Assembly (NCBI GenBank): GCA_030698575.1
Contig: JAUYMQ010000276.1
Location: 1-14,353, forward strand
Direction: 5' to 3'
From: Deltaproteobacteria bacterium
Lineage (GTDB): Bacteria; JAUYMQ01
Length of the DNA: 14,353 nucleotides
The notes under the pieces were generated by a model that saw nothing but the letters and a program-made list of their open reading frames with translations, made no database searches and was not told the origin of the DNA. Shown here piece by piece: positions 1 to 13,637 of the stretch. A program made the position numbers and the translations under genes. Position 1 is the first letter of the stretch. Each line of letters begins with the position of its first letter.

Positions 1-1238
1 GCGCGGTGCCGGTAGGCCGTTCCGAGATTGGTCTCGACCATGGCGTACGCGACCGTCAGGACGGTGGCGAAGCTCAGCAGCGTGGCCGCCGCGCGAAAGT
101 TCGTGCGAAGCGCGTAGCGGATGCCCTGCCAGATGGCGGGCAGCAGGCAGTACCACAGCAACATTTCGGGGAAGGTGAGCGCCTGCCGCAGGTTGAAGAT
201 CTGCCAGGGCGCGGGCGCCAGCAGGAAATAGGACAGCCCTATCGGCAGGTATGCGATCGCAGCGATAGGCGAGGCGATCTCGTGCTCCATGCCGTAGGCC
301 GAGCCACCCGAGGCCATCCCCTCGCGCATCTCATTGACCGTCGCCAGCCCCTGGTTCTCGACGATGTCACTCCCGAAGCCGTATTCCTGGTAGAGCCCGA
401 CGAACCCCAGCATGAGCAGCAGGGCCAGGGCGAGCCCCCTGAAGCTCACGCCCAGGCGCCCCAGCATCAGGCTTCCCACGAGAGAAACACCCGTGAGCAC
501 GAAGAGGTAGCTCCGGAGGGTCCCCAGAAGCGTCATGAAGCCGAGGAGCACGGCGAAGCGGCCCAGGCTCATGTGTCGCTGGAGCATGAGGGTGTGCCAG
601 AGCACCATGACGATGGCGAACGTGGTGAGGGCGTCCTTCAGGTTGATGCTCGACCAGAGCATCAGGCTCGGGAAGAACATCGCGAAAAGCGACGCCCATA
701 CCGCCGTCGGCCGGTCGAAGACCTCGCGGCAGAGATAGAAGACGTACAGCGAGCAGAGGGGACCGATGACGCAGTTCAGGAACGCCGGAACGAGCGGCAC
801 GAATCCCCAAAGCCAGTAGATGGCCCCGTTCACGTAGAACCAGCCCACCTGGTCGGAGTGCGCGATGTAGACCGGATACCCCCCCGTGCCCTTCCAGTAG
901 GAAACCAGCTGCTGGCCCACTTCGTTGTAGCGGCCGTCGTCGAGCGCGAAGCTCCCGGCGGGGAGCAGATAATGGTTCACCAGCGCAATGATGCACCGGA
1001 GAGTGATACCGAGCAGGAATATGGCGCAGAGAAACTGCACGTCCTCGACCCGGGATCGGGAACGGATGAACAAGAGCCCGCAGAAGGCGCCGACCACCGC
1101 CACGATGAATGCGACGGGAATCTGATTGTCCGTTCCGCCGGCGATGAAGCCGAGGCCGGCGACGAGGAAGGCCGTTGCCAAGGCCGTCCGGACCGCGCCG
1201 CGATTTCCTCCGGCAATCCCGTCGAAAAGCTTCCTCAA
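1..1238 (-). CDS. Polytopic GT-C-like membrane protein of the EPS cluster (3' end beyond window)
   Basis: Incomplete: 412 residues are visible and the frame is still open at base 1. The start is TTG at 1238, which overlaps the TGA of the upstream polymerase gene (TTGA) and has a G8 ribosome binding site six bases ahead. The product is very hydrophobic with many predicted membrane spans (first about residues 20-35 and 40-58). An acidic pair, Asp100-Asp101, follows the third span in the loop FALDDGRYN, where GT-C fold glycosyltransferases (ArnT/PMT-like) carry their catalytic acid. Other recognisable blocks are WSSINLKD (195-202), LRSYLF in the middle and ETNLGTAYRHR (402-412). The last is a block I associate with membrane proteins of exopolysaccharide clusters. 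I infer a lipid-linked-sugar-dependent glycosyltransferase or related assembly protein in the inner membrane. A polymerase role is possible, and the substrate cannot be read from the sequence. Confidence 0.72.
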   Translation of the reverse strand, partial: MRKLFDGIAGGNRGAVRTALATAFLVAGLGFIAGGTDNQIPVAFIVAVVGAFCGLLFIRSRSRVEDVQFLCAIFLLGITLRCIIALVNHYLLPAGSFALDDGRYNEVGQQLVSYWKGTGGYPVYIAHSDQVGWFYVNGAIYWLWGFVPLVPAFLNCVIGPLCSLYVFYLCREVFDRPTAVWASLFAMFFPSLMLWSSINLKDALTTFAIVMVLWHTLMLQRHMSLGRFAVLLGFMTLLGTLRSYLFVLTGVSLVGSLMLGRLGVSFRGLALALLLMLGFVGLYQEYGFGSDIVENQGLATVNEMREGMASGGSAYGMEHEIASPIAAIAYLPIGLSYFLLAPAPWQIFNLRQALTFPEMLLWYCLLPAIWQGIRYALRTNFRAAATLLSFATVLTVAYAMVETNLGTAYRHR

Positions 1239-3763
1239 GATTCTCCCCCCCCGCTCGCTTCCTGCGACCCCTCGCCCGCTGTCCTATCCTCCAGGATGGC
1301 CCTGGCGCTCGATGTGAGGCCGCGCTCCAGATAGAGATCAATCAGCAGGTCATGGCAGGCCCGGTTTCCCGGACGTGCCGCAGACAGTCCGCGGCAGGTT
1401 TCGACCGCCTGGTTCCAGTTCCCCGCGCGGCGATGCGCGCGCGCCAGCTCCACGCGGGCCTCTGCATTACCCGGAGCGGCCTCGCTCACCCGGGCCCAGG
1501 CGCTGATTGCGTCCTCAGGCCGTCCGCGCTGCGTCGCAACCTCCGCGAGCCCGCGTGCGGCCCCCAGATCGCCGGGCCGGAGGGCAAGAATCGACTCGTA
1601 CGCCTCGCCCGCGGCGGCCGGCTTCCCCGAAGCCATCAGCGCCCCGGCCAGAACTCGCATCGCAGGGACATGGCGGGCGTCGCGCCCGACGGCTTCTCGC
1701 GCCAGCACCAGGGCCGCGGCATGGCGTCCGCCGGCGAGGGCGATTCTTGCGCGGGCCGCGAGCGGTTCGGCCATGGCGGGATCCAGCGCGGCGGCCTCGG
1801 CGAATGCGGCGTCGGCCGCCTCTGCCCTGCCCTTCGTATCGAGAAACTCGCCCAGATAAATCAGCGCCGGGGGCGACGAAGGCGTGACGGAACGCGCAAG
1901 GATCGGATCGGCGGTCACCTCCCACAGAAGCGGGAGCACCCGCGAGAGGCCGCGCGCATCCGCAGCCACCGAGGCCTCGAGATCCACAAGCGCCTCAGCT
2001 CTTAGCCCTTCGGCCAGGCGGAAACGCGCCCGGGCTTCGCGTGCGGCGCCCGCCCTGGGATCCAGGCGGACGGCGTCGTCAAGCGCCGCCGACGCAACCG
2101 GGCGCTCACCGCGCGCCTCGGCCACGAACGCCAGCGCAAGGTACGAGGAGGCATCCCGCGGATTCAGCTTCACGGCGGACGCAAAAGCCGCCCCGGCCTC
2201 GCGCAGGGCAAGATGGCCGCCCTGCCCGCTCTGCCTCGACTCGAGAATCATCCTTCCAAGAAAGCCATGCGCCCCGGCGGAACCCGGATCGAGCGCCGTT
2301 GCACGGCGCCCAAGTTCGACTGCCCGTTCGGGCGCCAGGGCCGAGAGCGATGCTTCGGCCTCGGCGATGGCCGCCGCCGCCCGCGCGTCACGCAGAGTGA
2401 AAATCGAGAAAGAGACCGTCACCAGCAAACAGGCGGCCGCCCCCATCGCCGGGGCCATCCCCCTCGGCCGGAGGGCCGGAACTGACCCCCGGCGTCCCAT
2501 CCCCGCGGAGGCGGTGATGAGCCCGGCGTAGAGCCCCCAGAGCCACAGAAGCGGCGCCATCTGAAGCGGCGAGTCGACGAGCGCGTGGGCGCCGAGGGCG
2601 ACAAGGCCCGACAGCCCCGCCGCCGCCGAAGCCACTGCAACGCGATCGTTGCGCGTCCGGGATGTCACGATCGCCTGCCGCGCGAACGTCACGGCCGCGC
2701 CCAGTGCGAGAAGAGGAAAGGCCCAGCCCATTTCCAGCGATCCTTCAACCCAGTCGTTGTGGGCGTGCTCGACCCGATAGGGCACGTCGACCCCGCGATG
2801 CGCCGGATAGACCCAGGGAAAAGTCCCGAGCCCCCAGCCTGCGGCGCCCCCTGAACCGATTGCATCGACCGTGCTCTTCCAGATTGAGATCCGGAAACCC
2901 ATGGAGCTCTCGCTCGTCCCCTCCGGCGGCTTGAAACGCGAAAGAACCTCCGCGTGGCCGAGCGACAGACCTCCGAGAAGCGTCAGCGCCAGTGCGGCTG
3001 CGCGTCCGCGTTTTCGCCACCGGCCCGCGTCCTTCCCCTTCGCGAGGCTCACGCAGAGCGCGAGCGATCCCAGGCCGGCGATCGCCGCCAGCAGCCCACC
3101 CCGTGAGCCGGTCGCCAGCAGACCCGCCAGGCAGACGGCGACCCCGGCCGCCTGCAGGAGGGCGCCGATACGGGAGGCGGGTTGCTTCCCCAGGAAGAGC
3201 ACGCCGGCCAGGGCGACGGGGAGGATCGAGGCCAGCAGGGCCGCAAGATGGTTCGGATTGATGAAAGGGCCGCCCGTGTGTGGCGCGTCTCCTGGATGGC
3301 CTGTGAGCGCGCCCGGGATGCCGGCCGTCATCGGTTCGATGTGAATCAGCGCCAGAACCGCGGCCGCGGCGCCCAGGAGCACGAGGCCCGTGCGCAATCG
3401 CTCGCTGGCTGCGCGGCTGGCGGAGGCCACAAGCGTCGTTGCGTAGACGCCCGCCGCGCCCACAATGATCGCGAGCCGGAGAATGGCGGCGTGGGTATAG
3501 AAGGCGTGGAGCGCGGCCACACCCGCCAGCGCGAGGAGGCCTGACACCAGGAGTCCCGATCGGCCGGGCCGGCGAAGCGCCGGAAACGAGAGGGTGTCGC
3601 CCAGGGCGAAGGCGCATGCGGTTGCGAAGCCGAGGAGCATCCCCGCGCCTGCAAGCGGCGCCGCGGCCGCGCCGCCGCAGCCGAGAACCGCCACGGCGAT
3701 GGCAAGGAGCAACGCCGACCCTAGGATCGTGGCGTGGCGCGCCCGGCGCTTTGCTCGTTCCAA
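1235..3763 (-). CDS. Wzy/O-antigen-ligase-like polymerase with C-terminal TPR domain
   Basis: 842 residues. Residues about 10-455 form a polytopic membrane domain of the Wzy_C (O-antigen ligase/polymerase) family. The landmarks are GPFINPNHLAALL (165-177), ATGSRGG (217-223), GWGLGTF (309-315), the periplasmic-loop block VEHAHNDWVEGSLEMGW (331-347) and HALVDSPLQ (393-401). After a last span near 436-456, residues about 465-825 are an Ala-rich helical array of TPR-type repeats, for example ALDPGSAGAHGFLGR (490-504), KLNPRDASSYLALAF (532-546) and LRPGDLGAARGLAE (728-741). The family joins polysaccharide repeat units or transfers glycan in the inner membrane; polymerase is favoured here because of the Wzz and OPX neighbours. 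Start is TTG with a G6 ribosome binding site six bases ahead, 33 bases after the kinase gene. Plain Wzy or WaaL proteins are about 400-450 residues, so the TPR half is an addition. Confidence 0.88.
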   Translation of the reverse strand: MERAKRRARHATILGSALLLAIAVAVLGCGGAAAAPLAGAGMLLGFATACAFALGDTLSFPALRRPGRSGLLVSGLLALAGVAALHAFYTHAAILRLAIIVGAAGVYATTLVASASRAASERLRTGLVLLGAAAAVLALIHIEPMTAGIPGALTGHPGDAPHTGGPFINPNHLAALLASILPVALAGVLFLGKQPASRIGALLQAAGVAVCLAGLLATGSRGGLLAAIAGLGSLALCVSLAKGKDAGRWRKRGRAAALALTLLGGLSLGHAEVLSRFKPPEGTSESSMGFRISIWKSTVDAIGSGGAAGWGLGTFPWVYPAHRGVDVPYRVEHAHNDWVEGSLEMGWAFPLLALGAAVTFARQAIVTSRTRNDRVAVASAAAGLSGLVALGAHALVDSPLQMAPLLWLWGLYAGLITASAGMGRRGSVPALRPRGMAPAMGAAACLLVTVSFSIFTLRDARAAAAIAEAEASLSALAPERAVELGRRATALDPGSAGAHGFLGRMILESRQSGQGGHLALREAGAAFASAVKLNPRDASSYLALAFVAEARGERPVASAALDDAVRLDPRAGAAREARARFRLAEGLRAEALVDLEASVAADARGLSRVLPLLWEVTADPILARSVTPSSPPALIYLGEFLDTKGRAEAADAAFAEAAALDPAMAEPLAARARIALAGGRHAAALVLAREAVGRDARHVPAMRVLAGALMASGKPAAAGEAYESILALRPGDLGAARGLAEVATQRGRPEDAISAWARVSEAAPGNAEARVELARAHRRAGNWNQAVETCRGLSAARPGNRACHDLLIDLYLERGLTSSARAILEDRTAGEGSQEASGGGES
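1245..1252 (-). promoter_or_regulatory. G8 ribosome binding site that fixes a TTG start
   Basis: A run of eight G on the minus strand lies six bases (AGAATC) before the TTG at 1238. It sits inside the end of the polymerase gene. With no ATG nearby and a TTGA stop/start overlap, it supports TTG as the real start and suggests translational coupling. Confidence 0.5.
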
Positions 3764-3769
3764 GACCTT

Positions 3770-3775
3770 CCCCCC
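3770..3775 (-). promoter_or_regulatory. G6 ribosome binding site for a TTG start
   Basis: Six G on the minus strand precede the TTG at 3763 by six bases (AAGGTC), the same spacing as the G8 site at 1245-1252. A more standard GGAGG lies further upstream at about 3782-3786, but it is too distant from any in-frame start. The first in-frame ATG would cut off the first membrane span. Confidence 0.5.
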
Positions 3776-3796
3776 GCTTACCTCCGGAATGCTTGG

Positions 3797-5695
3797 CTAG
3801 ACTGCCGCCCCCGGCTGTTGGGCCGTTTCCTGCCCCGAGGCGTACTGCTGATACTGGTAGTAGTAGCCAAGGCGCTCGCGCCGGCTCTTGTTGATCACGA
3901 CCCCCAGAATCCGCCCCTGCGACTTTTCGATCTGCTCCTTCGCGCGCTGGATCGGTCGCCATTCGAACTTGCCCGCCTCCACGACGAGCACCGTTCCGTC
4001 GACCAGCCCAGCGAGGATGGAGGCATCGATGACCGAGCCGATTGGAGGTGAATCCAACACGACGTAGTCAAAGCGCTCATGGAGCTGCTTCAGCACCTCC
4101 CGCAGGCGGTCGGAATCGAGCAGCTCGGCCGGATTTGGCGGAAGCGATCCGCGCGGTATCACGAACAGATTCTTGATGGCGGTCGGCTGTATCACTTCGT
4201 CGAGCTCCGATTCGCCAACGAGCACCTCGACCATTCCTTTCCCGTTCTTCAGGCCGAACACCTTGTGCAGCCTCGGCTTGCGGAAATCCGAGTCGACCAG
4301 CACGGTCCGCTTCATGCCGCTGGCAAGCGTGATTCCAAGGTTCGCCGAGACAGTGCTCTTCCCCTCCTCCGGACCGGTGCTCGTGACGAGAAGGGTTTTA
4401 GGAACGCCGTCGGGCCGGGAGAACTTCAGGTTCGTCCGGAGGGTCCGGAACATCTCACTCTCGGGCGACGAGGGGTGCTGGGCAGAAATCAAGAAAGGGT
4501 TGCCCAGCCGGTCCTTCTCGTCCAACTGGATGATCGACGCGAGCACCGGCGTCTTGAGGAAACGCTCGGCGTCCTCGGGCGTCTGCACGGTGCGATCGAA
4601 GATCTCCAGATAGAGGACGAGTCCGATTCCCAGCAGGACACCCAGCAGCCCACCGATGGTAATGTTGCGCCTGGTGTTCGGGCTTATCGGTCTCGACGGG
4701 ATCTGCGCGTATTCGACGATCGACACGTTGTTGTCCGCCAGGCCACCGGTGAGATCCATCTCCTTCAGCTTCTTCATGAGAAGGATCATCATTTCCTTGT
4801 TGAGCTCCGATTCGCGCCGCTTGATGTTGTACTGAATGAGCTGCTTGTTCTGCGCCGAGTTCTCCACCATGTCTTCTGAGATCTTGCCCCTCAGCGTCTC
4901 GACCTCAGTGCGCTTCGCGACAACCTTCGGGTGTTTGTCGAGGTATCGCTGCAGCAGGCCGTTCAGCTCCATCTCAGCCGCTGCGAGCTGGTTCGAGAGC
5001 GCCTGAACGGTAGAGGTCTGCGACGCCATCCCCTCCTCCCCGCGTCCGGCGCCGGAGTCGGATGCCAGGCCTGTCGTCGGGTCAATGTTTGTTTCCTGGA
5101 GGTAGTCGATCAGCTCCTCGTCGAGCCCCCGGATCTTCCCCTCCAGGGTCGCCAGCTCTTCGGTCAGCCAGGCGACCGAGCGCCGGGTGGTCTCGAGTTT
5201 TCTTTCCTGATTCATCTCGATGTAGACCTCGGCCACCGTGTTCGCGATGCTGCTGGCGAGTTCCGCGTTCGGGCCCACGACGTTGATGTCGAACAGCCGT
5301 GTGTCCGGAATCCGATCGACCATGATCGAGTTCTTCACCCGCATGGCGGCGCCGCGCAGGGCTTCAGGCGAAGCATCGTCCGGGGCAAGCTTCAGTCTGC
5401 CCACCACTCGCTCGGCCACCGGATCGCTCTTGATCACGTGAATCTGCGTCTCGAAGGAGAGCCGCTCGGCGAAGTAACTCTCGTAAGGATTGGTCTGCTC
5501 GGGCAGGAGCGCGCGCACCAGGGTCTGCCCCATGATGATGCGGCTGGTGGCCCGGTAGACGGCCTGCTGCTTCCAGGTAAGCAGCCAGGCAACCGCGAGC
5601 ACACCTGCAGCGCAAGCCAGAACGAAGCGCCAGCGTCGCAGCAGAATAGAAACGAAGTCAGCTATGTGGGCGCCTTCCTCGAACTGGAATCGCAT
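3797..5695 (-). CDS. Wzz chain-length determinant fused to BY-type tyrosine kinase
   Basis: 632 residues, the full-length proteobacterial fusion architecture. The Wzz part has a first span at about 23-40, a periplasmic coiled-coil region (about 165-320), the proline motif PSRPISPN (333-340) and a second span (346-364). The cytoplasmic kinase carries EMFRTLRTNLKF (414-425), Walker A GPEEGKST (441-448), Walker A' VLVDSD (465-470) and Walker B YVVLDSPP (544-551). The tail has a Tyr cluster YYYQYQQY (611-618), the expected autophosphorylation site. Proteins of this family set polymer length and couple polymerisation to export through cycles of phosphorylation and oligomer assembly in the inner membrane. 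The ATG at 5695 has AGGAGG about ten bases upstream, overlapping the stop of the OPX gene (15 bases between coding regions). All three Walker elements are intact, so an active kinase is expected. No partner tyrosine phosphatase is seen in the window. Confidence 0.95.
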   Translation of the reverse strand: MRFQFEEGAHIADFVSILLRRWRFVLACAAGVLAVAWLLTWKQQAVYRATSRIIMGQTLVRALLPEQTNPYESYFAERLSFETQIHVIKSDPVAERVVGRLKLAPDDASPEALRGAAMRVKNSIMVDRIPDTRLFDINVVGPNAELASSIANTVAEVYIEMNQERKLETTRRSVAWLTEELATLEGKIRGLDEELIDYLQETNIDPTTGLASDSGAGRGEEGMASQTSTVQALSNQLAAAEMELNGLLQRYLDKHPKVVAKRTEVETLRGKISEDMVENSAQNKQLIQYNIKRRESELNKEMMILLMKKLKEMDLTGGLADNNVSIVEYAQIPSRPISPNTRRNITIGGLLGVLLGIGLVLYLEIFDRTVQTPEDAERFLKTPVLASIIQLDEKDRLGNPFLISAQHPSSPESEMFRTLRTNLKFSRPDGVPKTLLVTSTGPEEGKSTVSANLGITLASGMKRTVLVDSDFRKPRLHKVFGLKNGKGMVEVLVGESELDEVIQPTAIKNLFVIPRGSLPPNPAELLDSDRLREVLKQLHERFDYVVLDSPPIGSVIDASILAGLVDGTVLVVEAGKFEWRPIQRAKEQIEKSQGRILGVVINKSRRERLGYYYQYQQYASGQETAQQPGAAV

Positions 5696-5710
5696 GGTTG
5701 GTCGTTCCTC

Positions 5711-6835
5711 CTAGAAGAAGCTCTTCGGGACCACGATCACGTCTCCTGGGAGCAGATCCACGTCCAGCGATCGATCTCCCTTTTCCATCACGTCGCCCAT
5801 CTTCACGGTCTTCTCTTCCTTCTGGCCATCCTTGTCGCGCACGAGCTTGGTCTTGTTCGAGCGCGCGTATTCGCTGAAGCCGCCCGCGTCGAGAATGGCG
5901 GTCATGGCCGAGATCCCCTCCTTGTATTTGTAGGCCCCGGGGTTCTTGACCTCACCGAGCACGAAATAGCTGCGGTCCTCGCTGCCGAGAGCACCGCGTT
6001 CGGTCTCATCCTTCGGATGCACGTAGATGACGTCGCCGTTTTCCACCTGCCGGTTTTGACTGACGTCGCCCTTGACGAGCAGATCGTCCAGCCGGACGGT
6101 CACCCCCTGGACGCGCTCGCCGCCGCTGGCACCAGTCTGAAGCAGCGTGCACTCGCTCCCCGCATCGCGGGTGAGGCCGCCCGCGTCGAGCAGCAGCTTG
6201 AGCAGATCGGTCGGCCCCCGGAGCGCGTAGACCCCCGGACGCATGATCGAGCCGTGAACGGAGACCTTCTGCGACTGGTAGTCGACCACCTCGACGGTTA
6301 CGCGCGGATCACGCAGATACCCCTGGGCGAGCGCGTCGCGCAAAACATCGGCAATCTGCTTGGTGGAGTGCCCTGCAACGCCCACTTCACCCACGAGGTA
6401 GTGGTGGACAGTGCCGTCGGGTCCCACCTTGAACTCCCCGCTGACATCGGGCTCCTGCCAGACGGTGATCTGCAACACATCGCCGGGCCCGACGGTGTAC
6501 CCCTCGGGGGAATCGGTTGAAGCCAGTCCGACGCTGGCGCGGGCGGGTGCCTGCCCGGCCCCGGGAGGCGGGGAGATCTCGGTCACGGGCCCGCCGGGCG
6601 CGGCTGACCCGGCCGCCTCCTGCGGGATTGCCCCCGGCGGTGTCTCCGCCTCGGCCGCGCGCGGCGTGGGGGAGCCGAAGGGTGACTGGACGGGATCGGG
6701 CCGCGCGGTCGAGAGTGCCGGCCCCGTTGCCCCTGCCTGTTGTGCGACGGCGGTTCCGCCGTGCGCCACGAGCAGGAGCGCCGTCAGTGCGCAGAGAAGC
6801 GATTCAAATTCGGGCCGATTCAGCTTCCAGGTCAT
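5711..6835 (-). CDS. Polysaccharide export (OPX/Wza-like) protein with SLBB domains
   Basis: 374 residues. Residues 1-31 are a signal peptide ending AVA before QQ, with no lipobox Cys at the cleavage site, so unlike E. coli Wza it is probably not a lipoprotein. A Pro/Ala/Gly-rich linker (about 33-108) leads to the Poly_export domain starting GYTVGPGDVLQITVW (112-126), with VTVEVVDYQSQKVSVHG (179-195) running into the first SLBB domain (about 190-275). A second SLBB domain (SYFVLGEVKNPGAYKY onward) spans about 289-370. The protein ends four residues after VIVVP, so it lacks the C-terminal amphipathic helix with which Wza crosses the outer membrane. It should form a periplasmic conduit between the Wzz-kinase and an outer-membrane pore. 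The barrel encoded next to it is the obvious partner. Start is ATG with a G6 tract three bases upstream. Confidence 0.93.
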   Translation of the reverse strand: MTWKLNRPEFESLLCALTALLLVAHGGTAVAQQAGATGPALSTARPDPVQSPFGSPTPRAAEAETPPGAIPQEAAGSAAPGGPVTEISPPPGAGQAPARASVGLASTDSPEGYTVGPGDVLQITVWQEPDVSGEFKVGPDGTVHHYLVGEVGVAGHSTKQIADVLRDALAQGYLRDPRVTVEVVDYQSQKVSVHGSIMRPGVYALRGPTDLLKLLLDAGGLTRDAGSECTLLQTGASGGERVQGVTVRLDDLLVKGDVSQNRQVENGDVIYVHPKDETERGALGSEDRSYFVLGEVKNPGAYKYKEGISAMTAILDAGGFSEYARSNKTKLVRDKDGQKEEKTVKMGDVMEKGDRSLDVDLLPGDVIVVPKSFF

Positions 6836-6838
6836 TTT

Positions 6839-6844
6839 CCCCCC
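6839..6844 (-). promoter_or_regulatory. G6 ribosome binding site of the OPX gene
   Basis: Six G followed by AAA directly precede the ATG at 6835. It is the same style of site as before the two TTG-start genes and the GTG-start gene of this cluster; no ordinary AGGAGG is nearby. Confidence 0.45.
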
Positions 6845-6868
6845 GCGGTGCGTTGAAACCGTTCATCG

Positions 6869-6897
6869 GGTTCCGGGTCTCTCCGAGATCCGGAACC
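6869..6897 (-). other. Intercistronic RNA hairpin between barrel and OPX genes
   Basis: In the transcript, GGUUCCGG pairs with CCGGAACC (8 bp). After one A-C mismatch, UCUC pairs with GAGA around a GGA loop, giving about 12 paired bases. It starts seven bases after the stop of the barrel gene. No U-run follows, so it is not a standard intrinsic terminator. A role in mRNA 3'-end protection or in setting expression of the barrel against the downstream genes is inference. Confidence 0.6.
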
Positions 6898-6903
6898 GCG
6901 TCC

Positions 6904-8067
6904 TCAGAAATCGTAGCGAAGCCCGATGGTCGCCCGGAGCCCCTCGAAGTCGTCCGTCTCGAGTGTGCCCGCGTTCTGGCGGTAGCCCACGCCGGTGATG
7001 ATCGACGTTCTCGGACGGAGCTTGTGCTCCAGGCTGAGGTCTCCCCCGAAATAGTTGTTGTCGGGCGAAGCCGATCCTCCGTCGTCGAAGAGCGTGTAGA
7101 ACGAGCTCAGCCGAAGAAGGCTCCTTGGAGAGATCTCCCGTTCGAGGCCGAGGTTCGCGCGGTTCTGCCGGAACAGATTCCCGAAGACGTCGCTCGTGAA
7201 AATCTGGTCGTAGCCGACGGTCGCACGGGTCCGGTGATTCGGCGTGTAGGTGATCGACGCCTCGATGACGCTCCCGTTCTGGTTTCCCAAATCGTCGAAC
7301 TTGATCCAGTTGTAGCCCCCCGACAGGTTCACGGAGAATCGCCGTCCGAGCCTGAGACGCATGCCTATCTGTGAAAGCAGGCCGTTGAAGCTCGCGGCGC
7401 TGTCTTCTTTGTACTCCCGGCTCGTGAACTCCTGGGACGTGTAGACCAGGATGCGCTCGGTCATCTCCCGATCGAGATACAGGTTCGCCCGGGACTCGCC
7501 AAAGTTCGGAAGCTCCCCCTCTTCAGAGTCCTCGCCCAGGAAGTCCGTCTGCCCGTAGAGAAGCTCCATTCTGGCGTGGCTTCTCGACCCGATGTCGCTC
7601 CGGAGCACGGGGCCGACCCACCAGCTGTTCGACTGGACGAGGTTCGTGGAGATATCCTCGGGCTGTCCCACCCTCTCGTTCACATAGGTGAACAGGTCTT
7701 CCGCCTTGAGTGAGAGATGAGGCGTAAGGCGGTACTCCAGCACCGCCCGCTCGTGGAAAAACTGCCCGTTCAGATCCTCGTTTTTCCCGTAAACGAAGAA
7801 GCTGGCGCCGGACTCGGAGTCGAAGTCGGTCCGGTTGCCGCGATAGCTCAGCGTCACCAGCGGCGCGATCGTCGTGAAGAAGTCCCCCACCTTTCCGCGC
7901 CGCTCGAGGTAAGCGTTGTTGTCGTAGGTCTCCCGGAGCTCGAAGCTCCCGTTGACCTGCACTCGTCCCGCGTCCGCTTCAGGCGGGATCAGCGCCGTCA
8001 TGCCCCAGAGGAGCGCGGTCAGGAGGATGGCGAGTGAGAAGCGCATGTCGTTTCTTCGTCCGTTCAT
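6904..8067 (-). CDS. Outer-membrane beta-barrel protein of the EPS export cluster
   Basis: 387 residues. Residues about 8-33 are a signal peptide (MRFSLAILLTALLWGM then an Ala-Asp-Ala end). The rest is alternating polar/hydrophobic strands rich in Tyr, Phe, Arg and Gly with acidic loops, and the chain ends in LRYDF. A terminal aromatic residue on the last strand is the standard Bam-recognition signature of outer-membrane barrels. About 355 mature residues would suit roughly 16-18 strands. It resembles beta-barrel proteins encoded in other EPS loci (outer-membrane proteins of PEP-CTERM-type and myxobacterial clusters) rather than a classic porin. It lies between a secreted beta-sandwich-like protein and the OPX gene, so its likely job is the outer-membrane exit pore. 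The start is uncertain: ATG at 8046, beginning MRFSLAIL, is also possible, and neither start has a strong ribosome binding site. Confidence 0.85.
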   Translation of the reverse strand: MNGRRNDMRFSLAILLTALLWGMTALIPPEADAGRVQVNGSFELRETYDNNAYLERRGKVGDFFTTIAPLVTLSYRGNRTDFDSESGASFFVYGKNEDLNGQFFHERAVLEYRLTPHLSLKAEDLFTYVNERVGQPEDISTNLVQSNSWWVGPVLRSDIGSRSHARMELLYGQTDFLGEDSEEGELPNFGESRANLYLDREMTERILVYTSQEFTSREYKEDSAASFNGLLSQIGMRLRLGRRFSVNLSGGYNWIKFDDLGNQNGSVIEASITYTPNHRTRATVGYDQIFTSDVFGNLFRQNRANLGLEREISPRSLLRLSSFYTLFDDGGSASPDNNYFGGDLSLEHKLRPRTSIITGVGYRQNAGTLETDDFEGLRATIGLRYDF

Positions 8068-8093
8068 CTATGAGCTGATGCCAGTTGGCGTCC

Positions 8094-8124
8094 GTCGCAC
8101 GTCGTGCGTCGCGCCCCTAGGGGC
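8094..8124. repeat. Triple GTCG heptamer abutting a 12-bp palindrome
   Basis: Three imperfect heptamers (GTCGCAC, GTCGTGC, GTCGCGC) run back to back at 8094-8114. They adjoin GCCCCTAGGGGC (8113-8124), a perfect palindrome that contains the TAG stop of the secreted-protein gene. Together they fill most of the 49-base spacer before the barrel gene. The pattern is clear, but its function is unknown and it may be chance in G+C-rich DNA. Confidence 0.3.
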
Positions 8125-9490
8125 TGATTGACGTCTCGGGCGCCGTGGGGTAGACCAGCCCCGGAGACGTGCCGGGAAAGGGCCCCGATCCCGGCCCGAT
8201 GCCCGCGCCGGGCTGCGTGTAAAAACCCGCCACAAGCGTGTTCACCCGTTCCTGGAAACGGGCGTTTTCGGTGTTGTCCATCGCGGCCGCCATGCTCACG
8301 ACCGCCTCCGGGTCGGATTCGTGAAAACCGAGGTCTTCGAGAAGCATGAGAGAAGCCTCCGGACTCGGATCGCGATAGATCAGCCTCAGCACGTCGAGGC
8401 CGGCGCCGGCGTCCAGCCGAACATCGAGGCCCTGCGCCCCGCCGCCGAGCGGCAGCGTCGCCAGATCATTCCAGACGAGGCGGTCCGAAGGATCGGGCGC
8501 CCTCCAGGCGCGCTCGACCGAATCATTCAGAAGGAGCCGCCCGCCCCCGGCGCCCGTCACCCGGGCAAGGAGCGTGTAGGTCCCCGGTTGCGGCACCTCC
8601 ACCCGGTAGAGCATCCGAGAACCGCTTCCGGCCCCCTTCACCAGGGCCCCCTCGGAGGGTTTGTCGCGCGTTCCCTCGTTCGTCTGCTGGCCCGGCAAAG
8701 GGTCGGCGTCATACCGCTCCCCCTCGCGCTGCACCCGCCATTTCGAGATGTCCGGCAACTCGTGCTCGAGCTGCATGGCCTGAACCATCGTGACGGCCTT
8801 GACCCCGAAGGTGAGCGCCTCGCCGGGATGCCAGCCACCCGGCGGAAGAACGTGAGGGAAAGGCTGCCTGAGCAGTTCGAACCGGCCCAGGGCGCCGCCC
8901 AGCGGAATCTCGACGGTGACCTCGTGGTCCCCCGCGGAGAGCAGGAAGTAGCCGAGGAGATCCCCCTTTTCCTTTTCCGCCCCCAGCGACTCCATCGTTC
9001 CGGACGGCCGGCCGAGGCGAACTTCGTTTTCATCCATTCGCCAGCGCTGAAGCTCGCCGGCGCCCGTGAAACGCAGGGCGTAGATACCGGGCTGCGGAAT
9101 CCGAACCAGGTAGCGGCCACTGGCCGTTTCGTTACCCGCACGGACCCCGGCTTTCCCGTCGCCGCCGTCCGCGGGGACGCTTTGCGCCTCGGCCGGGAAC
9201 GGTTTTGCGGAAGCGGCCCACACGCGAATGGCGGGAGCCGGCGTTCCGGATAGAAATTCCATGAGAGCCGCGTCGTCCTGCCCCGACGGATCAACCGCCT
9301 CCGAAAGCCCCATGGCGTCGACGAGGAGACGCGCCCATGCGGCTTGCGTGATCGGGCCCGCCGAGGCGCGCTCTGCCCCGAGCAGGATGAAAACGGCCGG
9401 AAGCAGCGCCAGAATTGCGGCGACAACCCTGAGAGCCGGGATGCGACGCGCGCCGCCGCGAATGCGGCCGCCGAAAGTCGATGCGTCCAC
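8117..9490 (-). CDS. Secreted/membrane-anchored protein with two beta-sandwich-like repeats, function unknown
   Basis: 457 residues from the GTG at 9490. That start overlaps the TAG of the HTH gene (TAGTG) and has a G7 tract four bases upstream; a longer frame back to 9568 would only read through the HTH gene. Residues about 19-44 form a hydrophobic signal or anchor segment ending RASA. A helical stretch, ITQAAWARLLVDAMGL (47-62), follows. Two related modules come next: RYLVRIPQPGIYALRFTGAG (126-145) and LYRVEVPQPGTYTLLARVTG (294-313). Each continues into a second strand pair (GDHEVTVEIPLGG, 187-199; GAQGLDVRLDAG, 351-362) and then a helix. The PQPG-Y-L pattern recalls carbohydrate-binding-module-like jelly rolls. 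The Pro/Gly-rich tail (427-457) is probably disordered. I do not recognise the family. The position suggests a periplasmic or surface factor that binds polymer or helps the export pore. Confidence 0.75.
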   Translation of the reverse strand: MDASTFGGRIRGGARRIPALRVVAAILALLPAVFILLGAERASAGPITQAAWARLLVDAMGLSEAVDPSGQDDAALMEFLSGTPAPAIRVWAASAKPFPAEAQSVPADGGDGKAGVRAGNETASGRYLVRIPQPGIYALRFTGAGELQRWRMDENEVRLGRPSGTMESLGAEKEKGDLLGYFLLSAGDHEVTVEIPLGGALGRFELLRQPFPHVLPPGGWHPGEALTFGVKAVTMVQAMQLEHELPDISKWRVQREGERYDADPLPGQQTNEGTRDKPSEGALVKGAGSGSRMLYRVEVPQPGTYTLLARVTGAGGGRLLLNDSVERAWRAPDPSDRLVWNDLATLPLGGGAQGLDVRLDAGAGLDVLRLIYRDPSPEASLMLLEDLGFHESDPEAVVSMAAAMDNTENARFQERVNTLVAGFYTQPGAGIGPGSGPFPGTSPGLVYPTAPETSISP

Positions 9491-9681
9491 TATTCCCCCC
9501 CTTTCGCTGCGCCCTTGCTCCGGTGCTTCTGGATGAGGGCCTCGATATCGCGGCGGCTGAAGCGCCACTGCTTGCCGATCTTGGAGGCCGGGAGCTTCCC
9601 CTCCCGGGCGAGCCGGTAGACGGTCTGCTCGTTGAGTTTCAGGTACCGCGCGACCTCACGCACGCTGAGGACGTTATTCAT
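9490..9681 (-). CDS. Small helix-turn-helix (excisionase/MerR-type, HTH_17) DNA-binding protein
   Basis: 63 residues. LSVREVARYLKLNEQTVYRLAREGKLPASKIGKQWRF, read in pieces, is a textbook HTH_17 fold: helix (VREVARYL, 7-14), turn and recognition helix (NEQTVYRLAREG, 17-28), then the wing with conserved KIGKQWRF (34-41) and the helix SRRDIEALI (42-50). The short basic tail ends KGGE. Such domains occur in excisionases and in small transcription regulators; no integrase is nearby, so a regulator is favoured. The ATG at 9681 has AGGAA about nine bases upstream. It is the first gene after the putative promoter, and its stop overlaps the start of the secreted-protein gene by one base, so the two are translationally coupled. 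It may autoregulate the EPS operon. Confidence 0.88.
   Translation of the reverse strand: MNNVLSVREVARYLKLNEQTVYRLAREGKLPASKIGKQWRFSRRDIEALIQKHRSKGAAKGGE
9495..9501 (-). promoter_or_regulatory. G7 ribosome binding site deciding the GTG start at 9490
   Basis: Seven G followed by AATA precede the GTG. The tract lies inside the last codons of the HTH gene (Lys-Gly-Gly-Glu), so ribosomes ending there can restart at once. It supports GTG at 9490 over the longer frame beginning at 9568. Confidence 0.5.
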
Positions 9682-9865: not shown

Positions 9866-9893
9866 AAAAAAAGACCCCTCAGGCGAGGGGTCT
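9866..9893 (-). terminator. Intrinsic terminator of the glpX transcript
   Basis: In the minus-strand transcript GACCCCUC pairs with GAGGGGUC around a GCCU loop, followed directly by seven U. It lies about 50 bases after the glpX stop and before the EPS control region, so it separates the metabolic unit from the EPS operon. Confidence 0.93.
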
Positions 9894-9944
9894 CGGTCGG
9901 ATCAGGGTCGGATAGAGGCTGGCTGGGGCCCTAGAGGCGGCCTC

Positions 9945-10898
9945 CTAGTAGACCGGCTTGGAATCGAAATGGTGGGTAGCCTCGATGTAGCGGACGGTCC
10001 CGCTCTTCGAGCGCATGACGACGCTGTGGGTATGCGCCCCTCCCCTGAAGAAGCGGACGCCCTGCAGGAAATCACCGCTGGTCACGCCCGTCGCCGCGAA
10101 CATGACATCTCCGCCTGCGAGGTCGGTGATGGTGTAGGCCCGATTGAAATCGTCCACGCCCATCCGCTTGGCGCGCTCGCGCTCCTCATCGTTCCTGAAC
10201 TTGAGGACGCCCTGCATGTCTCCGCCGACGCATCTCAGCGCGGCGGCCGCAATGACGCCCTCCGGGGCGCCGCCGATGCCCAGGAGGATATCGATGCCGG
10301 TATCTTCACGGCAGGTGGCGATCGCGGCCGACACGTCGCCGTCCCGTATGAGCTTGATCCTCGCGCCGGTCGCCCGGACTTCCTTGATCAACTCGGAGTG
10401 GCGCGGACGATCGAGGATGACGGCGGTCACCTCGTCGGGCCGGCGTCCGATGCACTCGGCAACCGCCCTGATGTTTTCCGAAGCCGACTTCCGGATGTCG
10501 ATGCATCCGGCCGCGGCGGGACCGACGGCGATCTTGTCCATGTAGGTGTCGGGCGCGTGAAGGAACTGCCCCTCGTTCGCCACGGCAATCACGCTGAGAG
10601 CGTTGGAGCCGCCGATTGCAGTGATCGTCGTCCCCTCGAGCGGATCAAGAGCGATGTCCACCTTCGGCTCCTCGCCGCTTCCGACTTTCTCGCCGATGTA
10701 GAGCATGGGGGCTTCGTCACGCTCTCCTTCGCCTATCACGACGGTGCCTGCCATATGGATGGAATTGAGCGTGCGGCGCATCCCGTCCACCGCCGCCTGA
10801 TCCGCTGCCTTCTCGTCTCCACGCCCCATGAGGAGCGCGCTAGCGAGCGCCGCGGCCTCAGTGACGCGAATGAACTCCAGCGCAAGGTTCCGATCCAT
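9945..10898 (-). CDS. glpX: Class II fructose-1,6-bisphosphatase
   Basis: 317 residues, near full family length. It hydrolyses fructose 1,6-bisphosphate to fructose 6-phosphate in gluconeogenesis, with divalent metal, in the cytosol. Visible signature blocks are VVIGEGERDEAPMLYIGE (53-70), DPLEGT (85-90), GIGGAPEGV (207-215), GGDMQG (225-230) and TITDLAGGDVMFAATG (256-271). Counted from ATG at 10898, the expected metal and substrate residues fall at Asp33, Glu57, Asp85, Glu88, Thr90 and Glu213, the same numbers I recall for E. coli GlpX. This supports the start and an active enzyme. GAGGAG lies seven bases before the ATG; the frame extends upstream to 10994, but that part has no family similarity. 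It follows the apgM-like gene by 56 bases, probably co-transcribed, and is followed by an intrinsic terminator. Some homologues also act on sedoheptulose 1,7-bisphosphate. Confidence 0.96.
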   Translation of the reverse strand: MDRNLALEFIRVTEAAALASALLMGRGDEKAADQAAVDGMRRTLNSIHMAGTVVIGEGERDEAPMLYIGEKVGSGEEPKVDIALDPLEGTTITAIGGSNALSVIAVANEGQFLHAPDTYMDKIAVGPAAAGCIDIRKSASENIRAVAECIGRRPDEVTAVILDRPRHSELIKEVRATGARIKLIRDGDVSAAIATCREDTGIDILLGIGGAPEGVIAAAALRCVGGDMQGVLKFRNDEERERAKRMGVDDFNRAYTITDLAGGDVMFAATGVTSGDFLQGVRFFRGGAHTHSVVMRSKSGTVRYIEATHHFDSKPVY

Positions 10899-10954
10899 GC
10901 CAAGTCTCCTCGGTTTTGTACTTAGGTGATTTCGCTCAAGCGGAAGGCGCGGCC

Positions 10955-12163
10955 CTAGATATCCCCCGAAAGAAAACGCTCCATGATCGTCCATCCCCGG
11001 TCGACGGTCAAATCCGATTTCGCCGCCTCCGCCTCGGTGAAGGCCCGCGCACCGCTGGGCGGCCGTCCGGGAGGCGCGGGCCAGACGGCGAAGGGGACCG
11101 GCTCGGGGGTGTGCGTCTTGATCGCGCAGGGTGTCGGATGGTCGCTGATAACGAGAAGCCTGTGATCGCCGACACCAGGCAGGCCGTCCAGAAGCGGCCG
11201 GAGCACACGGGAATCGATGTCCTCGATGGCCTGGACCTTCGATTTGAAATCACCCTGATGCGCCGACTCGTCGGTGGCCTCAATGTGAATGAAGACGAGA
11301 TCGAGCTGGCGGAGCGCATCAATCGCGTGGGAGGCCTTCCCTTCGTAGTTGGTGTCGGTCCAGCCGGTGATCCCCGGAACGTGAATGATCTCCATTCCGG
11401 CCAGACGGGCGATTCCACGGATGATGTCCACCGCGCTGATGGCTCCGCCCCGCAGGCCGCGGAGTTTCTCGAAGGGCTCCAGAACCGTTGCCCGCCCCTG
11501 CCCCCAGAGCCAGATGCTCGAGGCTGAACGTTCGCCCCGGGCCGCGCGGGCCCGGTTCACGGGGTCCGCGGCCAGGATCTCCCTGGACCGCGCCATCAGT
11601 TCCCGCAATGGCTCTGCTCCGTCGCCGGCGGGCAGATGGGGAGTGACCGGACGGTCGCTGATGTCGTGCGGCGGCGTGGTGGTCATCTTTTCGACCCCGC
11701 CGTGCCACACAAGAAGGTGCCGGTAGGATACTCCGGGATGGAACGAGAACTCCCCCCCGCCGAGCGCCTCATCGAGGCGCCTGATGATCTCGTGGGACTC
11801 CTCGTTGGGGATGTGACCGCAGGCGAAGTCCTCCATAACGGAGTCCGGGCCTTCCTCGCGCAGCGTTACCAGATTGCAGCGAAAAGCCACGTCCTCAGGT
11901 CCCAGTGAGACCCCCATCGCGGCGGCCTCGAGCGGGGAACGGCCGGTGAAGTAGCGCGCCGGCTCGTAGCCGAAGATCGAAAGGTTTCCGATGTCGCTCC
12001 CGGGCGGAAATCCCTCGGGGATGACACGGCAGAGGCCGAAGCGGCCCTCGCGCGCGATCCTGTCGAGCAGCGGCGTCCGCGCCGCCTGGAGGGGCGTTCT
12101 ATCACCAAGTTCCTTTATGGGCCGGTCGGGCATCCCGTCGCACTGGAGGATCACGTACTTCAT
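10955..12163 (-). CDS. apgM: ApgM-family phosphomutase homologue, candidate homoserine kinase
   Basis: 402 residues, alkaline-phosphatase superfamily, cofactor-independent archaeal-type phosphoglycerate mutase branch. Metal and nucleophile residues are in place: CDGMPD (8-13), PPGSDIGNLS with nucleophile Ser56, GRSPLEAAAMG (74-84), FRCNLVTL (94-101), ACGHIPNEE (114-122), EATDESAHQGD (295-305), SDHPTP (340-345) and THTPEPVPF (350-358). One subgroup of this family has been proposed as the homoserine kinase in genomes that have hom and threonine synthase but no thrB. Being next to hom fits that proposal; interconversion of 2- and 3-phosphoglycerate is the alternative and also suits the glpX neighbour. 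ATG at 12163 is chosen because GGGAG lies five bases upstream; a GTG two codons earlier overlaps that site. The 163-base gap to hom holds an inverted-repeat element. Confidence 0.92.
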   Translation of the reverse strand: MKYVILQCDGMPDRPIKELGDRTPLQAARTPLLDRIAREGRFGLCRVIPEGFPPGSDIGNLSIFGYEPARYFTGRSPLEAAAMGVSLGPEDVAFRCNLVTLREEGPDSVMEDFACGHIPNEESHEIIRRLDEALGGGEFSFHPGVSYRHLLVWHGGVEKMTTTPPHDISDRPVTPHLPAGDGAEPLRELMARSREILAADPVNRARAARGERSASSIWLWGQGRATVLEPFEKLRGLRGGAISAVDIIRGIARLAGMEIIHVPGITGWTDTNYEGKASHAIDALRQLDLVFIHIEATDESAHQGDFKSKVQAIEDIDSRVLRPLLDGLPGVGDHRLLVISDHPTPCAIKTHTPEPVPFAVWPAPPGRPPSGARAFTEAEAAKSDLTVDRGWTIMERFLSGDI

Positions 12164-12210
12164 TGGCACTCCCGGATCGAATGTGGGTCCGTTTGCGCGC
12201 CCCGCCGCAT

Positions 12211-12318
12211 GTCATTGCGAGGAGCGGAGCGACGAAGCAATCCCCCCAGCAGACGCCACCCGTGCCTAGTTCGCAGGGGATTGCTTCGTCGGCGCCTGCG
12301 GCCCCTCCTCGCAATGAA
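12211..12318. repeat. Imperfect inverted repeat (REP/MITE-like) between hom and apgM
   Basis: The left arm contains CATTGCGAGGAG (12213-12224) and CGACGAAGCAATCCCC (12230-12245). The right arm carries the reverse complements of both (12276-12291 and 12305-12316). The arm centres differ: the right arm is about five bases longer and diverged there. The loop between arms is about 30 bases. Repeats with the core CATTGCGAG...GAAGCAATC are widespread as dispersed small elements in proteobacterial genomes. In RNA it would form a long hairpin just after the hom stop, without a U-run. The apparent short frames across it, such as one reading CFVAPLLAMT, are known translation artefacts of such repeats. 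Confidence 0.85.
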
Positions 12319-12326
12319 ATGCGCCC

Positions 12327-13637
12327 TCAGGCGAGATCGGGTTCGACGCGAACCATCTGGGTCGGGGCCTGGACTGTATCCGAGCCGTCTATGCCAGCGA
12401 GCGCGTCGCGCAGATTCTTCTCGCGCGCGGCATGGGTCATGATAACGATTGGGACGTTCCGTGCGTGCTCGCGCCTCTTCTGGATGACGCTCGAGATCGA
12501 GATGTCGTGATCCCCCAGGATCCCCGAGATCCGCGACAGGATTCCAGGCCGGTCGGGAACGGTGAAGCGCAGGTAGTAGTGACACACGATTTCGTTCATC
12601 GGTTTGAGCTGCCCTCTTGCGAGAAAGCTGTTGTGAACCGAGAGGCCGCTCCCGCGGCGGGGTGCCTTGCGCAGGAGGCCGCGCGCGATGTCCATCGCGT
12701 CGCTCACAACGGCGGTCGCGGTGGGCATTTCACCGGCGCCGAGCCCGTAGAGCATGGTCGATCCCACGGCCGCGCCGTGCACATAGATGGCGTTGTAGGC
12801 GCCGTCGACGGTGGCCAGCAGATGCGACGAGGGGATCATCGTCGGATGCACGCGTGCCTCGATCACACCGTCTTTCGCGCGGGCGATCGCAAGCAGCTTG
12901 ATGGTAAAACCGAACTCGCGGGAAAATTCGATGTCCGCCGGCGTGATCTTCTCGATCCCCTCGCGGTAAATGTGATCGAGATCGAGATAGTAGCCGAAAG
13001 CCAGGGCGCTCAGAATGCAGAGCTTGTGCGCCGCGTCGGTGCCGTCGACGTCGAAGGCCGGGTCGGCCTCCGCCAGCCCCTTCTCTTGCGCCTTCCTGAG
13101 GACGGCATCGAAGGGGCGCCCCTCGGCGGTCATCTTCGAGAGCACGTAATTGGAAGTCCCGTTGATGATGCCGTGGATGCTCTCGATCCGATCAGAGGCG
13201 AAGCCTTCCTGGATGGCCCGGATGATGGGGATTCCGCCACCCACGCTCCCCTCGAAGCGCACCTCGACCCCGCGCTTCTCCGCCGCATCGAAGATCTCCT
13301 TGCCGTGGACGGCGAGAAGCGCCTTGTTGGCGGTGACGACGTGCCTGCCCCCTTCAATCGCGCCGAGGACGATTTCGCGGGCCACCGTGGTTCCGCCAAC
13401 CAGTTCGACGACGATTTGAATCTCATCGTCCTCGAGGAGACCGCGGTAGTCCGCGACGAGAACGCCGGCCTCGAGCGCAACGCCCCGATCGCGGGCGGTG
13501 TCAACGTCCGCGACGTGCCGGAGGACCAGGGGCGCACCGGTCCGGTCGCCGATGAGCGATGCGTTCTCCTGGAGGAGCCTGACCACGCCTCTTCCGATGG
13601 TCCCGAAGCCCACCAGACCGATGCCGACGGCCTTCAT
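12327..13637 (-). CDS. hom: Homoserine dehydrogenase with C-terminal ACT domain
   Basis: 436 residues. It reduces aspartate semialdehyde to homoserine, the branch point to threonine and methionine, in the cytosol. The N-terminal Rossmann motif is [13 protein letters not shown] (7-19). NKALL (104-108) and [14 protein letters not shown] (156-169) follow. The family signature runs through [20 protein letters not shown] (186-205), with Lys205 and the Asp residues forming the catalytic centre. The ACT domain begins near [18 protein letters not shown] (358-375) and runs to the end, so feedback control by threonine or another amino acid is likely. Start is ATG at 13637, overlapping the aminotransferase stop by ATGA and preceded by a GGGGCGGGGG-type ribosome binding site. 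The longer open frame to 13883 only crosses the aminotransferase gene. Length and architecture are typical of the monofunctional ACT-bearing enzyme. Confidence 0.97.

Follow-up and report, generated by a model that had tools for sequence, protein, structure and literature searches.

The closest described relatives of the gene studied here belong to the family of model TIGR02535 (ThrB2), which was proposed to act as homoserine kinase in TIGRFAM, where the proposal originates. In the GapMind study, mutants in the Bacteroides thetaiotaomicron member BT2402 were found to require threonine, and BT2402 gave no rescue of an Escherichia coli thrB mutant (PMC7311316); conserved zinc sites were recognized in BT2402 by SitesBLAST (PMC9765024). 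Among gut genomes ThrB2 is complementary to ThrB, and within otherwise similar Bacteroidetes operons thrB2 is replaced by thrB (PMC9026213). In predictions of amino-acid pathways, homoserine kinase is one of the steps most often found missing (20% of 148 prototrophs; PMC7311316). A literature search for biochemical proof of ThrB2 activity found no family member with demonstrated activity.

The reaction proposed for ThrB2 is the same as that of three homoserine kinase types with unrelated folds, i.e. the GHMP-type ThrB, the APH-type ThrB (TIGR00938) and the shikimate-kinase-like enzyme of Desulfovibrio, none of which was found in the source genome of the present gene. The fold itself is shared with the archaeal ApgM phosphoglycerate mutases (2zkt, 3kd8/3idd; TIGR00306, PRK04024), as are the serine nucleophile and the metal ligands. 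A precedent for intermolecular transfer in the ApgM family is PhpG, the CMP-5'-phosphonoformate--3-phosphoglycerate phosphonoformyl transferase (NF038358), which like ThrB2 is described as a transferase and not as a mutase; the protein studied here differs from it, reaching 237 bits on NF038358 against a cut-off of 545.

The window, i.e. the whole analysed stretch of 14,353 nucleotides, represents one entire contig (C27) of the draft genome G000, and its relevant features are collected in Table 1. The first-pass annotation had described an intact ApgM-type active site directly downstream of hom on the same strand, and this description proved accurate with regard to Ser56, the metal ligands and the coordinates. 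Like BT2402, the window gene scores over the TIGR02535 cut-off and lies beside hom in a genome with thrC and a separate phosphoglycerate mutase, where thrB was not found; it differs from BT2402 in having no adjacent thrC, in the glpX gene downstream and in the REP-like pair within the gap of 161–163 bp that separates it from hom. The exact pattern of these repeats occurs in 95 copies in the source genome, the reversed control pattern in none; they exist in two forms, CATTGCGAGGAGCGNAGCGACGAAGCAATC and CATTGCGAGGAGGGCCGNAGGCCCGACGAAGCAATC, and are often arranged as inverted pairs. Another part of the window (positions 3–9568, minus strand) resembles, on inspection by eye, an exopolysaccharide cluster, with a polymerase/TPR protein, a Wzz-type tyrosine kinase, a Wza-type export protein and an outer-membrane barrel.

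Table 1. Features around the candidate homoserine kinase gene (positions in the window)
Positions	Strand	Feature	Details
9866..9905	-	Hairpin with T run resembling an intrinsic terminator, downstream of glpX	Recognized by eye; gagacccctcgcctgaggggtctttttttg
9945..10899	-	glpX, class II fructose-bisphosphatase	Separated by 55 bp from the ThrB2 gene, which precedes it; TIGR00330 394.7 bits, match from residue 33 of a longer frame; likely true start ATG 10899
10955..12163	-	ThrB2 (TIGR02535), candidate homoserine kinase; ApgM/alkaline-phosphatase-superfamily fold	402 aa, intact; ATG start (12163), with a GTG at 12169, two codons upstream
12213..12316	.	REP-like inverted pair of palindromic repeats	Inside the hom–ThrB2 gap; hairpin -62.3 kcal/mol
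12327..13637	-	hom, homoserine dehydrogenase with ACT domain	436 aa; NCBIfam PRK06349 531.7 bits; Homoserine_dh and ACT domains; PF00742, PF03447, PF01842
13634..14353	-	Class I/II aminotransferase, 3' part (LL-diaminopimelate/alanine aminotransferase-like)	Truncated at contig end; PF00155; PRK08175 394 bits across the part present; overlaps downstream hom by 4 bp (ATGA)

Whereas hom and glpX are identified by NCBIfam unambiguously, the protein between them matches several models. It contains the domains PF10143 and PF01676, with a profile match (E 1e-149) far beyond chance. As for the earlier remark that a subgroup of ApgM has been proposed as homoserine kinase, it passes TIGR02535 ('proposed homoserine kinase') with 498.0 bits against a cut-off of 446.3, but in the scoring against the two kinds of models, suggested as a means of deciding, the mutase models were passed too: PRK04200 ('cofactor-independent phosphoglycerate mutase') with 517 bits, the best-scoring NCBIfam model, and TIGR00306 (apgM) with 498.6 bits, both above cut-off. 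The function of the gene is not settled by profile libraries alone. The family set of metal ligands and nucleophile is complete (Asp9, Ser56, Asp298, His302, Asp341, His342 and His351, numbered from the ATG at 12163), Ser56 being located in the segment PGSDIGNLS, and it aligns with that of the archaeal mutases of known structure, 2zkt and 3kd8. The AlphaFold model (pLDDT 97) has 2zkt as the closest solved fold (TM 0.81); the sequence identity to the archaeal enzymes is about 28%.

The source genome is a draft of 4.13 Mb in 653 contigs, 91.6% complete and 4.6% contaminated, so that the missing thrB falls short of proof. Among the genomes compared, none is related to it more closely than at the level of the domain. 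The search of the whole genome with the thrB model TIGR00191 gave nothing over the cut-off, with a best match of 31.8 bits to a protein that we take, from reading its sequence, to be IspE; as this is the sole GHMP match, a hidden thrB was rejected. The APH-type homoserine kinase (TIGR00938) gave no match in the genome at 1e-5. A shikimate-kinase-like homoserine kinase was rejected as well, since no second SKI-domain protein besides AroK was found in the genome, the single one being encoded between a secretin-like gene and aroB. On the other hand, thrC is present (contig C599; 227.5 bits, cut-off 167.1), and MetX, through which the methionine route was checked, was not found in the genome, leaving threonine as the evident fate of homoserine; a hom serving methionine alone was rejected on these grounds. 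Furthermore, a separate, intact GpmI is encoded on contig C481 (631.6 bits, cut-off 330.65) with its motifs GNSEVGH, DGRD, FRADR, EKYAH and DHG kept, which makes the ApgM-type gene dispensable as the mutase of this genome. It follows from these checks that the genome possesses hom and thrC without a known homoserine kinase, and a glycolysis with its own mutase. This is the opposite of the pattern, thrB together with no other mutase, that the first-pass annotation had named as speaking against its candidate non-orthologous homoserine kinase, which every genome check that it had asked for supported. Its view that the neighbourhood allows two readings stood as far as the aminotransferase, hom and glpX are all in place, but the whole-genome searches favour the homoserine kinase over the mutase.

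The same profile searches were applied to 116 deep-lineage bacterial genomes, one per family. TIGR02535 was exceeded in 32 and thrB in 31 of them, and never both in the same genome, i.e. thrB occurs in 0/32 carriers of TIGR02535 as compared with 31/84 others. The one-sided Fisher test for this exclusion yields 6e-6 for all 116 genomes and 1e-8 among the 86 with thrC, values to be taken as a guide only, the lineages being not independent and the lists transcribed from search tables. thrC is present in each of the 32 carriers, 29 of which also possess another phosphoglycerate mutase (GpmI, GpmA or a second ApgM), the three in which no other one was found being G020, G032 and G113. Such near-perfect mutual exclusion fits interchangeable enzymes, as does the replacement of thrB2 by thrB in otherwise similar Bacteroidetes operons (PMC9026213), and both argue against a role in threonine synthesis other than that of the kinase, e.g. 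as a partner or as a repair or regulatory phosphotransferase or phosphatase, with an unknown homoserine kinase encoded elsewhere. In favour of such a role are the failed complementation by BT2402 (PMC7311316) and two observations from the genomes. First, one small phylum (G112 and G116–G118; loci L048:7866-9889 and L121–L123) has, in each of its four genomes, a member of the threonine-related half of the family described below directly upstream of a bona fide GHMP-type thrB, which is followed by lysC in G112; these members are long-branched, with the signature residues intact in G112, the sole one examined, and the phylum is the only case seen in which that half co-occurs with thrB. The side-by-side arrangement may reflect redundancy, a recent takeover or another role of the family in the pathway. 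In addition, 17 genomes of the sample have thrC over the cut-off and neither thrB nor ThrB2 (G013, G028, G050, G057, G059, G068, G073, G076, G079, G088, G090, G096, G098, G099, G100, G103 and G105), from which it follows that further homoserine kinases of other kinds probably exist among these lineages. On balance, a role of ThrB2 other than that of the kinase is considered unlikely.

The maximum-likelihood tree of 65 ApgM-family proteins (quick search) divides into two halves, the split being supported by an SH-aLRT value of 100 and reproduced by FastTree, and the window protein belongs to the threonine half (43 rows). The two halves differ clearly in gene context, for which the gene had to lie within 3.2 kb of hom, thrC or lysC and be read in the same direction. 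Of the 32 carriers of TIGR02535, 26 have the gene in such a position, and with eight members below the cut-off included the count in the threonine half is 33/40; in the mutase half, which served as a control and in which many genes are second ApgM copies of the same genomes, it is 0/22. The recurring gene order is aminotransferase, hom, thrC, ThrB2, lysC and a citramalate-synthase-like gene, where the names of the first and the last are presumed from reading the sequences, with no profile results. Of this order the window shows the aminotransferase, hom and ThrB2, and in many relatives an aminotransferase-like gene likewise precedes hom. Proteins 41–45% identical to that of the window were seen in MAGs of Deltaproteobacteria (L090, with hom directly upstream of the threonine-type gene), Methanoregula (L091, a threonine-type protein in a MAG labelled as archaeon) and Delongbacteria (L092).

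Both halves retain the nucleophile and the metal ligands. Around these, the mutase half together with 2zkt and 3kd8 exhibits the motifs D-R-R-A-G-R, H-R, D-P, L-x-R and K-x-x-D, which correspond to D-[YFH]-S-x-G-H, Y-R, P-P, W-x-W-G and H-x-E-A-x-D-E in the threonine half; the window protein reads DFACGHI, IWLWG and HIEATDE. In window numbering, the replacements from the mutase to the threonine half are Arg113 to Phe/Tyr/His, Arg114 to Ser (Ala in the window protein), Arg117 to His, His147 to Tyr, Asp164 to Pro, Leu218 to Trp, Arg220 to Trp and Lys295 to Glu, with Glu299 gained. The window protein accordingly has DFACGH, Trp220 and Glu295 instead of DRRxGR, Arg220 and Lys295. The swapped residues presumably line the pocket, since they lie beside the catalytic residues and are swapped throughout the clade, and the loss of positive residues with the gain of acidic and aromatic ones would suit a pocket that receives an amino acid in place of doubly anionic phosphoglycerate.

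It is therefore very unlikely that the gene encodes an archaeal-type cofactor-independent phosphoglycerate mutase that lies next to hom incidentally and serves gluconeogenesis together with glpX. The fold common to 2zkt and 3kd8, the scores on PRK04200 and TIGR00306 and the directly adjacent glpX would agree with such an enzyme; the complete GpmI of the genome, thrC without a thrB having been found, the replacement of the Arg/Lys/His set that is invariant in the mutases and the absence of the mutase half from the threonine-synthesis context contradict it, and GpmI elsewhere in the genome, the residue replacements and the control on gene context led to the rejection of a function as phosphoglycerate mutase only. 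A bifunctional enzyme, i.e. a homoserine phosphotransferase using phosphoglycerate (or phosphoenolpyruvate) as donor with residual mutase activity, would suit the conserved catalytic core, the glpX neighbour and the three carriers without another mutase found, but is extremely improbable given that the threonine half has throughout exchanged the residues that never vary in the mutase half and that 29/32 carriers keep another mutase.

Taken together, thrC being present, the known kinases not found, the separate GpmI, the exclusion of thrB, the gene context and the replaced residues make the window gene a candidate homoserine kinase, and it quite probably encodes ThrB2, a non-orthologous homoserine kinase from the ApgM branch of the alkaline-phosphatase superfamily. 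We infer a reaction in which the two-metal site would activate Ser56, which would take the phosphoryl group off a phosphorylated donor and pass it to the gamma-hydroxyl of homoserine, whereas a mutase returns it to the molecule it came from; the O-phospho-L-homoserine so formed would be the substrate of ThrC, encoded elsewhere in the genome. With regard to the donor, 2- or 3-phosphoglycerate seems less likely because the residues invariant in the mutase half have been lost, and phosphoenolpyruvate, suggested by the TIGRFAM curators, is possible. Tentatively, and with somewhat less than an even chance, ThrB2 proteins could be dedicated phosphotransferases that refuse phosphoglycerates, the mutase pocket (DRRxGR, Arg220, Lys295) having become an amino-acid pocket (His117, Trp218, Trp220, Glu295, Glu299) and the donor being an unusual one other than ATP.

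If that were true, the alkaline-phosphatase superfamily would include a homoserine 'kinase', and this could account for the growth of E. coli not being restored by expression alone. The window gene joins a known family as a candidate homoserine kinase; new here are the exclusion test across 116 lineages, the control on gene context and the catalogue of residue replacements. With clear sequence rules for telling phosphoglycerate mutases and ThrB2 apart, many annotations would be corrected and false calls of threonine auxotrophy removed, and such rules would supply concrete residues for testing the homoserine kinase reaction.
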